NCBI GenBank assembly: GCA_020253595.1
Contig: JADCBH010000372.1
Span: forward strand, 1-35,268
Length of the DNA stretch: 35,268 nt
Direction: 5' to 3'
Source of the DNA: Brevundimonas sp.
GTDB taxonomy: Bacteria > Pseudomonadota > Alphaproteobacteria > Caulobacterales > Caulobacteraceae
The position numbers were made by a program, and so were the translations under genes. Position 1 is the first letter of the stretch, and each line of letters starts with the position of its first letter. The notes beneath the pieces were generated by a model. It was given only the letters and a program-made list of their open reading frames with translations. It did no database searches and was not told the origin of the DNA. This document shows, piece by piece, positions 21,822-25,575 of the stretch.

Positions 21822-21885
21822 GCGCACCCCTTAGACCGGCCACCCTTGCAGCGGAACGTCCCAGCGCGGCATACGCTTGGGTCCC

Positions 21886-22365
21886 ATGAGTGTCGCCTTC
21901 ACCCGCGAGGAGGATCTGGAGGCCACGGCCGCCGATCTTCCCGACCGCCCCGTCTCTCCGCACCCCAATCTTGTGACGCCCGAAGGGCTGGCCGCCATCG
22001 AAGCCGCTCTGGCCGGCGCGCGCACCGCCTATGCCGCCGCCCAGTCCAAGGGCTCGATCGAGGCGGACCGGACGGCCATGGCGCGGGCGACGCGCGATCT
22101 GCGTTACTGGTCGGCGCGTCGGGCCTCTGCCCAGCTGACGGAGATGCCGGCCGACGGGCGGGTGCGTTTCGGGGGGTCAGTGACGATCGAACGCGAGGAC
22201 GGCCGCACCCAGACCTGGCGCATCGTCGGGGAAGACGAGGCGGATCCGGCGCACGGCTCGGTCAGCCATGTGTCACCTCTGGCACGCGCCCTGATCGGCA
22301 AGCGTCAGGGGGGCGAGGCGGTGGTGGCCGGTCAGACGGTCGAGGTCATCGCCGTCGACGGCTGA
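21886..22365 (+). CDS. GreA/GreB family elongation factor-like protein (divergent)
   Basis: LVTPEGLAAIEAALAGARTAY coiled-coil start and C-terminal SHVSPLARALIGKRQGGEAVVAGQTVEVIAV typical of Gre factors; lacks the canonical GDLxENAEY tip. Confidence 0.75.
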   Translation: MSVAFTREEDLEATAADLPDRPVSPHPNLVTPEGLAAIEAALAGARTAYAAAQSKGSIEADRTAMARATRDLRYWSARRASAQLTEMPADGRVRFGGSVTIEREDGRTQTWRIVGEDEADPAHGSVSHVSPLARALIGKRQGGEAVVAGQTVEVIAVDG

Positions 22366-22367
22366 TG

Positions 22368-23618
22368 TCAGGCCGCCGCGATCTCCGGCAAACCCGCTGC
22401 CCGGTCCAGCCGCGCATCGGTCAGGTCGGCCCCGGCAAGATTGGCACCGGTCAGATCGGCCCCGGACAGGTCCGCACCGATCAACACCGCAGAGGCGAAA
22501 TCGGTTCGACCCAGCTCGGCATAGCGGAGACGAGCTCCCGTCAGGTTGGTCGGAATGGATCGGCTGGGACCAAGCGGGAGGGGGCTGAGGTCCGCTGAGG
22601 TCAGGTCTGCCTTGGTCATCAAGGCCCCGCCCATGCGTGATCCACGCAAATCGGCCTTGCCGAGCCGTGCGCCCCTGAGGTCCGCGTTTTCGAAGTTGGC
22701 TCCCTGAAGGGCCAGGCCCCGCAGGTCCAGGCCAGCCAGACAGGCCCCCTTTGCGCTCATGGCCGAGAGCTTGAGGCCCTTCAGGCGGTCGCCGAGAGGG
22801 CGAAGGTCCTCTCCGTCGAAGATGGCCGCGCCACCCAGCGCGCCGCCGCTCTCCACCCAGGCATTGGCATCCAGAGCCATCTGGAGAAGCTCTTCGGCGC
22901 GGACGACGGCGGCAGGGTCGGGTTCGCGGATGCAGCCGGTGGTGTCGGTCCGGTCCAGCTTTGCGGTTTCCATGGCCACGCCGCTGAGGATGGCGCCGCA
23001 CAGCTTGGCGCCGGCCAGGTTGGCACCGGCGACGGCGGCGCCTTCCATCTGGGCTCCGGACAGGTCCGCATCCTTGAGGTTGGCCCCGGTGAGGTTTGCG
23101 CCCCGCAGTGAGCAGTCGGTGAAGTCGGCCCTGGTCGCGCTGATGCCGTCCATGCGGGATCCATCCAGCGTGGCGCCCGAGAAGCGTGCGCCGTCAGCCT
23201 GTCCGCCCCGGGTCTCGTGGCGGGCGGCAGCGAGGCCCTTGGTTTCGTGAGGCACCGCGATCACGCCCTCGCGGAAGTCTGCCTGGGTCAGGTTGGCTTC
23301 GGAAAGGTCAGCGCCCTGCAGACAGGTTCCGCGAATGTCGGCACGCACCAGCCGGGCTCGTGTCAGATCAGCTCCACGCAGGTCGCAGCCGAACAGGACG
23401 GCGCGCTCCAGACGGGCTCCCGCCATGTTGCAGTTCTGCAGAACCGAGCCGGAGAAATCGGCGTCGTCGAGGATGCGATGCGCCATGCTGACGCCCGTCA
23501 GATCGACGAACTTCAGCGACAGCTTGCGTCCGCCCGGCTTTCCCGAGACGAACCGTTCGTGGGCGGCGGCGAACAGGTCGAAATCGCCCTGGCCCAGGCG
23601 GCGGCGGTTGATCGTCAT
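22368..23618 (-). CDS. Pentapeptide-repeat protein (paralogue 1)
   Basis: Long A(D/N)LxxA repeats in several blocks with conserved interruptions, including LLQMALDANAWVESGGALGGAAIFDGEDLRPLG. Confidence 0.92.
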   Translation of the reverse strand: MTINRRRLGQGDFDLFAAAHERFVSGKPGGRKLSLKFVDLTGVSMAHRILDDADFSGSVLQNCNMAGARLERAVLFGCDLRGADLTRARLVRADIRGTCLQGADLSEANLTQADFREGVIAVPHETKGLAAARHETRGGQADGARFSGATLDGSRMDGISATRADFTDCSLRGANLTGANLKDADLSGAQMEGAAVAGANLAGAKLCGAILSGVAMETAKLDRTDTTGCIREPDPAAVVRAEELLQMALDANAWVESGGALGGAAIFDGEDLRPLGDRLKGLKLSAMSAKGACLAGLDLRGLALQGANFENADLRGARLGKADLRGSRMGGALMTKADLTSADLSPLPLGPSRSIPTNLTGARLRYAELGRTDFASAVLIGADLSGADLTGANLAGADLTDARLDRAAGLPEIAAA

Positions 23619-24910
23619 GCGGATGCCTCCTCCCGTTCAAGGCCGCGAACCCCGGTCAGGATCGCGTCGGCGAAATCGGCGTGCCGCGTCTGGACGCCAT
23701 GCAGGATCGCGCGTGTTAGGTCTGCGCGGACGAGCACCGCCCGTTTGATGTCCGCTCCGGACAGGTCGGCCCCGCGAAGGACTGCGCCTGTCAGGTCGGC
23801 GGGCAGGAGGCGTTCACGACCCAGCATGAGCGGACCCAGTTGGGCCTCGCGCAGATCCGCCCCGTTCAGCCGCGCCCCCGCCAGGCGCGCGCCCCTCAGG
23901 TCGGCCCGGCGCAGGTTGGTCGAGCGCAGATCAGCGCCCTCCAGATGGGCGCCCTGCAGCTGAACGCCCTCCATGTTCAGGCCGTAGAACACCGCCCGCT
24001 TCGCGGAGAGCGCGGTAAGGTTGAGGCCCGTGATCGAACCGAGCGCCCGGAGGTCCACATCGTCGAAGACCGACGGCTGGCCCTCGATCCCCCCGGTTTC
24101 GCACCAGACGGCGTGTTCATGCAGCATGTCTGCCGCCGGAAGCTTGGACACCGGCGCGCCCGACGAGCGACTGTCGGTCAGGGCCCCTTCAAGATTGGCC
24201 CCGTCGGTCCGCCACATGACCGCCGTCACGCCGACCAGCACGGCGTCGCGCAGGTCTGCACCGGTCAGGTCCGCGCCCGACATGTCGGCACCCGCCAGAT
24301 CCGCGCCGCGGAAGTTGGCCGATTTCAGATTGGCCCGAACGAGCTTGCAGTCCTTCATGATGGCGTCGGAGAAGTCGGCCGCCTGGGCTGAAATCCCCGA
24401 AAGACGCGACCTCTGCAGATTGGCACCGACCAAACTCGCGCCCTGGGCCTCGGTCGGGTTCCGCTCCTGGGACGCTACAATCCGGAAGCCGACCGACTTG
24501 TCGGCTGCTGCGAGCGCGCCTTCTCGCAGATCGGCTTCGAAGAGATCCGCGCCTGAAAGGTCGGCACCCTTCAGGCAGGCCCCGCGCAGATCTGCCCGAC
24601 GCAGCGAGGCGTCAACCAGAACGGCGTCCTGCATGTCGGCCCCGAAAAAGGCGGCGTTATCCAGCCGCGCGCCCGTCAGGTCCGCTCCGATCAGGCAGGC
24701 GGCCGAGAAGTCGGCGTCGGCGAGGTTGCGGCCCTTCAGGTTCAGGCCGGACAGGTCCATCCAGGCGAAGACCGCGCGCGCGCCGCCGGGCCGCGCCTGC
24801 CACAGCCGGTCGTGCCGGGCGCAGATGGCGTCGAGCTCCTGCTGGCTGATGCGGCGTCTGAGGACGCCTTCCTGGACCGCTGACATGGTCCCATCCTGGG
24901 ACATCGGCAC
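23615..24910 (-). CDS. Pentapeptide-repeat protein (paralogue 2; true start may be internal, e.g. ATG 24904)
   Basis: A(D/N)LxxA repeats; MLHEHAVWCETGGIEGQPSVFDDVDLRALG interruption aligns with paralogue 1; stop/start ATGA overlap with paralogue 1. Confidence 0.92.
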   Translation of the reverse strand: MPMSQDGTMSAVQEGVLRRRISQQELDAICARHDRLWQARPGGARAVFAWMDLSGLNLKGRNLADADFSAACLIGADLTGARLDNAAFFGADMQDAVLVDASLRRADLRGACLKGADLSGADLFEADLREGALAAADKSVGFRIVASQERNPTEAQGASLVGANLQRSRLSGISAQAADFSDAIMKDCKLVRANLKSANFRGADLAGADMSGADLTGADLRDAVLVGVTAVMWRTDGANLEGALTDSRSSGAPVSKLPAADMLHEHAVWCETGGIEGQPSVFDDVDLRALGSITGLNLTALSAKRAVFYGLNMEGVQLQGAHLEGADLRSTNLRRADLRGARLAGARLNGADLREAQLGPLMLGRERLLPADLTGAVLRGADLSGADIKRAVLVRADLTRAILHGVQTRHADFADAILTGVRGLEREEASA

Positions 24911-24951: not shown

Positions 24952-25575
24952 TCAGGCTGTCAGCAGGCCCTGTTCGGCCAGCGCATCGGCCAGCTCGCCC
25001 GGTCCGGTCCAGAGACGCGTGTAGCCGGCTTCGCCGAGCCGTTTCAGCTCGGTCACCAGATCGGCGCGCGGGCTTGCGGCGAAGCGGGCGTCGAAGCCCG
25101 TGCCGTCCGCGCTGACGCGAACCATTGGGCGACCGGTCTCCAGCCGGTGGAGAAAGCCCTCCGACAGGGTCCCCGCAGCGTCCTCCATGAGGCCGGCCTC
25201 AACGACCAGTCCGGCCTGACGCAGTCGCTCCGTGCCGCGGCCCGACGCAAACGGCGAGGGATCGAGGGCGGCGACAACCACGCGAGCGATGCCTGCCTCG
25301 ACCAGGAACTGGGCGCAGGAGGCGCGGCCAGAGGACCGGGCCCCGCATGGCTCCAGAGTGACATAGGCGGTTGCGCCCCGGGCCGCGTCGCCGGCTGCGG
25401 GCACGGCCTGCTCCTCGGCATGGGGCCGGCCTCCTGGCGCTGTGGCGGCCTCGGCCACCACCTGCCCGTCTTTCACCAGGACACACCCGACCGCAGGGTT
25501 GGGCCAGGTCTCGCCCATACGCGCGAGGGCGAGCTCGATGGCGCGAGCCATGAAGCGGGCGTCGTCGTCGCTCAT
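24952..25575 (-). CDS. RibD-like pyrimidine deaminase with strongly shortened reductase domain
   Basis: MARAIELALARMGETWPNPAVGCVLVKDGQVVAEAATAPGGRPHAEEQA and VTLEPCGARSSGRASCAQ; only about 207 aa; C-terminus ELKRLGEAGYTRLWTGPGELADALAEQGLLTA resembles the end of the RibD reductase domain. Confidence 0.82.
   Translation of the reverse strand: MSDDDARFMARAIELALARMGETWPNPAVGCVLVKDGQVVAEAATAPGGRPHAEEQAVPAAGDAARGATAYVTLEPCGARSSGRASCAQFLVEAGIARVVVAALDPSPFASGRGTERLRQAGLVVEAGLMEDAAGTLSEGFLHRLETGRPMVRVSADGTGFDARFAASPRADLVTELKRLGEAGYTRLWTGPGELADALAEQGLLTA

Follow-up and report, generated by a model that had tools for sequence, protein, structure and literature searches.

Two adjacent genes in the 35,268-nucleotide stretch of Brevundimonas sp. 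DNA analysed here (the window) encode pentapeptide-repeat proteins, PRP-A and PRP-B, each of which arose long ago by internal duplication of a single capped coil module. This conclusion is well supported by profile comparisons of the protein halves, and it recasts the breaks in the repeat pattern of both proteins as parts of a two-module plan.

The genes lie in tandem on the minus strand, PRP-B (positions 23615..24910, 431 aa) upstream of PRP-A (22368..23618, 416 aa), and the stop codon of the first overlaps the start codon of the second by 4 bases in an ATGA (23615..23618, minus strand), all as the initial annotation had placed them. PRP-B starts with GTG as called, internal ATG codons at positions 3 and 9 being possible alternatives, and its conservation begins at about residue 17. 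Pfam matches of both proteins are to pentapeptide families only. Membership of PF00805 is defined by a contiguous run of eight or more A(D/N)LXX pentapeptides and a score above the gathering cut-off; both proteins have these, with 10-18 register matches per repeat block and scores of 199 and 194 bits against a cut-off of 20.2 (E 4.5e-60 for PRP-A, 2.4e-58 for PRP-B). The earlier description of the pair as full-length paralogues that align end to end holds, given 42% identity across residues 9-425 of PRP-B (E 2e-83), and every shared segment that it named is present in both proteins and kept in their orthologues. Residues invariant in 60 B-type sequences include H33, G42, G43, R45, R109, D127 and R129, and in the second half H266, G277, D286, R288, D327 and G340; many of these (H33, G42, G43, R45; H266, G277, D286, R288) fall in the caps described below. 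The same genome also carries a third, diverged pentapeptide-repeat paralogue (locus L199, contig C99), a 396-residue open frame that is 32% identical to PRP-B and forms a long branch in the tree.

AlphaFold models of the two proteins (mean pLDDT 91.8 and pTM 0.85 for PRP-B; 92.7 and 0.88 for PRP-A) place two cap helices in each chain, at residues 23-37 and 259-271 in PRP-B and 10-25 and 235-256 in PRP-A, every one of them followed by a loop and then by a strand every five residues (DSSP, both models). As predicted, both proteins thus fit a coil with one strand per pentapeptide, the Rfr-fold. In PRP-B, cap 1 spans residues 20-46 (24773..24853, minus strand, as are all features here) and contains invariant H33, G42, G43 and R45, and cap 2, with invariant H266 and G277, spans residues 257-285 (24056..24142). 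The PRP-B module-1 insertion (residues ~131-152, 24455..24520) follows the invariant D127-L-R129-E motif, R109, D127 and R129 all preceding it, and is predicted with lower confidence (pLDDT 65-81) to be a hairpin with strands at 134-137 and 141-144. The module-2 insertion, GPLMLGRERLLPA (residues ~359-371, 23798..23836), was located from the in-register module alignment. The corresponding features of PRP-A are the cap 1 helix (residues 10-25, 23544..23591), a module-1 hairpin insertion (residues 118-137, 23208..23267; predicted strands 118-124 and 128-137), the cap 2 helix (residues 235-256, 22851..22916), which is also in register by hhalign, and a module-2 insertion (residues 345-356, 22551..22586) drawn from the model and the module alignment. 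The segmented beta-helix that had been proposed from the breaks is supported, and the breaks are conserved across the family.

Among PDB folds the matches belong to the pentapeptide-repeat class and include HetL and NP275-NP276 as well as MfpA, QnrB1, AlbG and AhQnr. Neither of two fold comparisons gave a functional lead; every match was to a pentapeptide protein or to another kind of beta-helix. Long solenoids superpose poorly, which keeps the Foldseek TM-scores low (0.1-0.34 on the query), so the fold assignment rests on sequence, strand spacing and the identity of the hits. By inspection, no hydrophobic N-terminal stretch is found in PRP-A or PRP-B; the N-termini are charged and helix-forming, which suggests that both proteins are cytosolic.

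When the halves of each protein were compared as profiles with hhalign (residues 20-250 against 253-425 in PRP-B, 7-232 against 234-410 in PRP-A), the best alignment was in each case in register. The in-register score was 218 for PRP-B, the next best alignment reaching 128, and 154 against 97 for PRP-A in the same register. In PRP-B this pairing sets cap against cap, four coils against four coils and insertion against insertion, the module-1 insertion being longer by ~37 residues, and an in-register alignment of halves is also obtained across the two proteins. The register is kept when both caps are masked (offsets 235, 230 and 193 in PRP-B) and when distant orthologues alone are used. When the pentapeptides of the second half were put in shuffled order, the observed score was never reached (0 of 300 trials for PRP-A and 0 of 300 for PRP-B). 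From the in-register halves and the shuffles we conclude that each protein is a duplication of one capped module, and the matching cap helices of the AlphaFold models agree with this. A direct profile comparison of the caps, which are only ~45 residues long, gave 28 against controls of up to 33, so the claim is carried by the alignment of full modules.

The in-register alignment changes how the breaks are read. The initial annotation had proposed a functional site at the W-x-E-x-GG linker; this linker aligns with cap 1 in the profile comparison and is the helical N-cap that begins the second beta-helix module. The N-terminal HxR...PGG segment and the linker are thus copies of one element, a relationship that had been overlooked, and the third break (LSPLPLG/LGPLMLG) corresponds, in module 2, to the DLREG break of module 1. 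Nor is the linker special to the pair: it is equally conserved in species having one of the two genes, and where either gene occurs as a singleton the linker is retained. The phage family PHROG 923 aligns to PRP-B from residue 17 with the cap included (profile positions 763-885 of 990), which points the same way as the cap and module reading. Searching plasmids with cap 2 alone returned Azospirillum orthologues only, while cap 1 with the first coil also matched other pentapeptide proteins, from Vibrio, Paenibacillus and Streptomyces among others, and a Listeria hypothetical protein, which makes the cap generic at least in part.

The internal duplication is the older of two. Module 1 of PRP-B scores 431 against module 1 of PRP-A and 175 against its own module 2, indicating that duplication within the gene came before duplication of the gene. 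In a quick tree with several unresolved forks, the A and B proteins of Caulobacteraceae occupy separate parts, and homologues from across the Alphaproteobacteria group with B. A B-type match is present in 38 of 41 close genomes, and nearly every congener has an orthologue with 71-84% identity. Searching 119 genomes of the family with PRP-A found A, B or another paralogue in 98 (E <= 1e-25). B-type relatives occur in 89 of 289 genomes of the class, often several per genome (E <= 1e-25), and in 16 of 399 sampled from the phylum (E <= 1e-30), all 16 belonging to the same class. The gene order gpmA > ribD-type deaminase > PRP-B (> PRP-A) < hsp20 is kept across Caulobacteraceae, and hsp20 is near PRP-B in several more distant genomes too. 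This conserved order points to vertical inheritance of PRP-B, an ancient gene of Alphaproteobacteria that is near-universal in Brevundimonas. PRP-A is an older duplicate and a dispensable extra copy: it lies directly downstream of PRP-B at 25 of 73 Brevundimonas-type loci (47 are without it and one is incomplete), in other Caulobacteraceae at 16 of 20 loci, and at no distant locus out of 24. An A-type gene without PRP-B is present at three loci (L168, L171, L172).

Upstream of PRP-B in the window is the gpmA neighbour, a RibD-type gene (24952..25575, minus strand, 207 aa) with the deaminase domain only; it is coupled to gpmA, and its TIGR00326 score of 155.6 is just under the cut-off of 156.35. 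On the other side, convergent to PRP-A, is a GreA-family gene (21877-22365, plus strand) that scores above the NF004973 (PRK06342) cut-off. It occupies the position held by hsp20 in most relatives, as it does in loci L079 and L081, so this flank has been rearranged in the lineage of the window. Farther afield, B-type relatives from several distant families lie directly upstream of mutL (L188, L189, L190, L233, L235), mostly with pgi on the opposite side, and another group lies beside ffh and/or dapF (L237, L243, L245, L252, L258, L260).

In Caulobacter crescentus, CCNA_02341 is sHSP1 (PMC8119881; PMC3751524), and CCNA_02342 is described as a 'hypothetical protein with pentapeptide repeats', which the iron-responsive sRNA RusT lowers 2.1-fold (PMC11005374). 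Judged by gene order, CCNA_02342 is probably PRP-A or PRP-B at the orthologous locus beside sHSP1.

Taken together, we consider it rather likely that PRP-A and PRP-B are two-module cytosolic solenoids with a history of two duplications, PRP-B serving as a scaffold or adaptor in a housekeeping role and PRP-A as an optional variant. The ancestral module would have consisted of an alpha-helical N-cap with an H...GG signature, about four coils, an insertion and more coils. Its duplication inside a single gene produced the two-module protein now widespread in Alphaproteobacteria, and a later gene duplication set PRP-A beside PRP-B; Brevundimonas has often lost PRP-A, while many other Caulobacteraceae retain it. 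The caps, the linker being cap 2, may close each coil at its open end, a role suggested by the predicted models. The long, roughly neutral outer faces probably bind protein partners, with PRP-A the faster-evolving of the two, and a scaffold role would be the most likely function of both proteins. The conserved Caulobacteraceae neighbours (gpmA, the deaminase gene and hsp20) may reflect inherited order only.

The neighbourhoods of distant relatives raise the possibility of a narrower role, in which the two-module family would be a signalling adaptor for sensor kinases, chemoreceptors or nucleotide cyclases and the Caulobacteraceae gene would have moved away from its partner. Among 98 immediate neighbours of class-level relatives we counted HisKA (6), Response_reg (5), MCPsignal (2), Guanylate_cyc (2) and CheZ (2) domains, none of which appears among the 25 commonest families of 110 second neighbours. 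Pooled local counts of signalling genes were 17 of 197 immediate against 4 of 193 second neighbours (p 0.006, the loci not being independent), and a histidine kinase gene lies 51-64 bp upstream of a relative, on the same strand, in two Azospirillum plasmid records. A protein family designated c69 is, moreover, an immediate neighbour of relatives in four families. Against this, the replicate set alone was not significant (5 of 79 against 2 of 79, p 0.44), some search seeds were themselves drawn from immediate neighbours of these non-independent loci, the pgi/mutL, ffh/dapF and hsp20 contexts are equally recurrent, and in Caulobacteraceae there is no consistent signalling neighbour. We therefore treat the association as a weak lead and regard the adaptor-and-relocation reading as unlikely. 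A related version, that the proteins form a distinct alphaproteobacterial family of signalling adaptors whose two coils bind such partners, and that PRP-A is a lineage-specific paralogue with altered specificity, seems slightly less likely again. The c69 family itself (~380 aa; L186:5242-6381, L191:4731-5858, L195:7602-8774, L274:2761-3921) recurs as a B-type neighbour, yielded no Pfam or PDB match, and by eye resembles a nucleotide cyclase-like domain.

DNA mimicry of the Qnr/MfpA type, which the initial annotation had brought up, fares a little worse. Under this reading PRP-A and PRP-B would be gyrase or topoisomerase modulators, each module mimicking DNA and binding the enzyme. Qnr, MfpA and AlbG do belong to the same fold class, MfpA, QnrB1, AlbG and AhQnr being among the fold matches, and they resemble a single module in size. 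The insertion, roughly mid-module after about four coils, also recalls the loops that interrupt the coil of Qnr proteins (PMC8145042). In one distant genome, a gene that resembles GyrA at its start (L244:381-3188) lies upstream of a pentapeptide-repeat relative in divergent orientation. However, PRP-A and PRP-B are not strongly acidic overall, with net charges near zero (-4 and -7; orthologue medians 0 for A and -4 for B), and their scores fall far below curated NCBIfam cut-offs for Qnr (NF033086: 76.9 and 70.6 bits against 240) and MfpA (NF000349: 86.4 and 95.5 bits against 360). Qnr and MfpA dimerise head to head through a C-terminal helix. The AlphaFold models have no such helix in PRP-B and only residues 412-415 in PRP-A, and the duplicated modules follow one another head to tail. 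The gene neighbourhoods showed no sign of mobility or resistance, and gyrase mimicry by these proteins is unlikely.

Least probable, and in our view very improbable, is a dedicated heterodimer made in equal amounts through translational coupling, as the ATGA overlap had suggested: the overlap recurs at many loci of the Brevundimonas group and PRP-A is directly downstream in 41 of 41 loci that have both genes, but PRP-B stands without an adjacent PRP-A at 47 of 72 Brevundimonas-type, 4 of 20 other Caulobacteraceae and 24 of 24 distant loci, which argues against an obligate partnership, and A-type genes also occur alone. The overlap is, in addition, confined to the Brevundimonas group, the gap between B and A being 24-108 bp in nearly all loci outside it. 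A transcription start is also listed for CCNA_02342, whose reporter fusion begins 35 bases upstream, numbered relative to that start (PMC11005374).

Several better-studied proteins share parts of the architecture of the two-module solenoids. A helical N-terminal cap is an ordinary feature of pentapeptide-repeat proteins, described in a review for HetL, NP275 and Alr5209 (PMC8145042), which join such an alpha-helical cap to a right-handed pentapeptide beta-helix and, with NP276, are among the best PDB sequence and fold matches. These proteins are, however, cyanobacterial and have one module of ~100-240 residues, whereas PRP-A and PRP-B carry two homologous capped modules per chain, each with a conserved insertion. 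The HetL model (NF047416) gave the two proteins 149.5 and 146.5 bits against a curated cut-off of 260; the 113-residue Alr5209 model (NF052603, cut-off 125) gave 134 and 149 bits, spread over 4-5 repeated stretches and generic to the repeat. YjbI of Caulobacter (CCNA_01968), a PF00805 protein from the same bacterial family as the host, has a secretion signal and acts at the outer membrane (PMC12864828), whereas PRP-A and PRP-B have no hydrophobic N-terminal stretch. The Knotted Solenoid proteins of Brevundimonas are likewise beta-solenoids enriched in this genus, homodimers of unknown function with short triangular knotted coils (PMC13123833); we rejected identity with them, the coils of PRP-A and PRP-B being long, regular and of another size and shape. 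Two other contexts were also set aside. A defence or mobile setting was rejected on the basis of stable chromosomal synteny and the lack of any PADLOC match. Phage origin was rejected as well: the phage matches (up to 46% identity among the matches listed) look repeat-level, being for the most part fragmented over the 49-96% of the protein that they cover, and the PHROG matches are to unnamed pentapeptide families, with one weak tail fibre match.

To our knowledge, most pentapeptide-repeat proteins have no known function. PRP-A and PRP-B are a real and conserved protein pair of an ordinary class with an under-appreciated architecture. The two-module plan accounts for the breaks without a special site and, with its internal helical cap, marks out a family without a match to any specific curated model. 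PRP-B is vertically inherited and near-universal in Brevundimonas, and C. crescentus, which probably has it beside sHSP1, would allow its study in a genetically tractable species.
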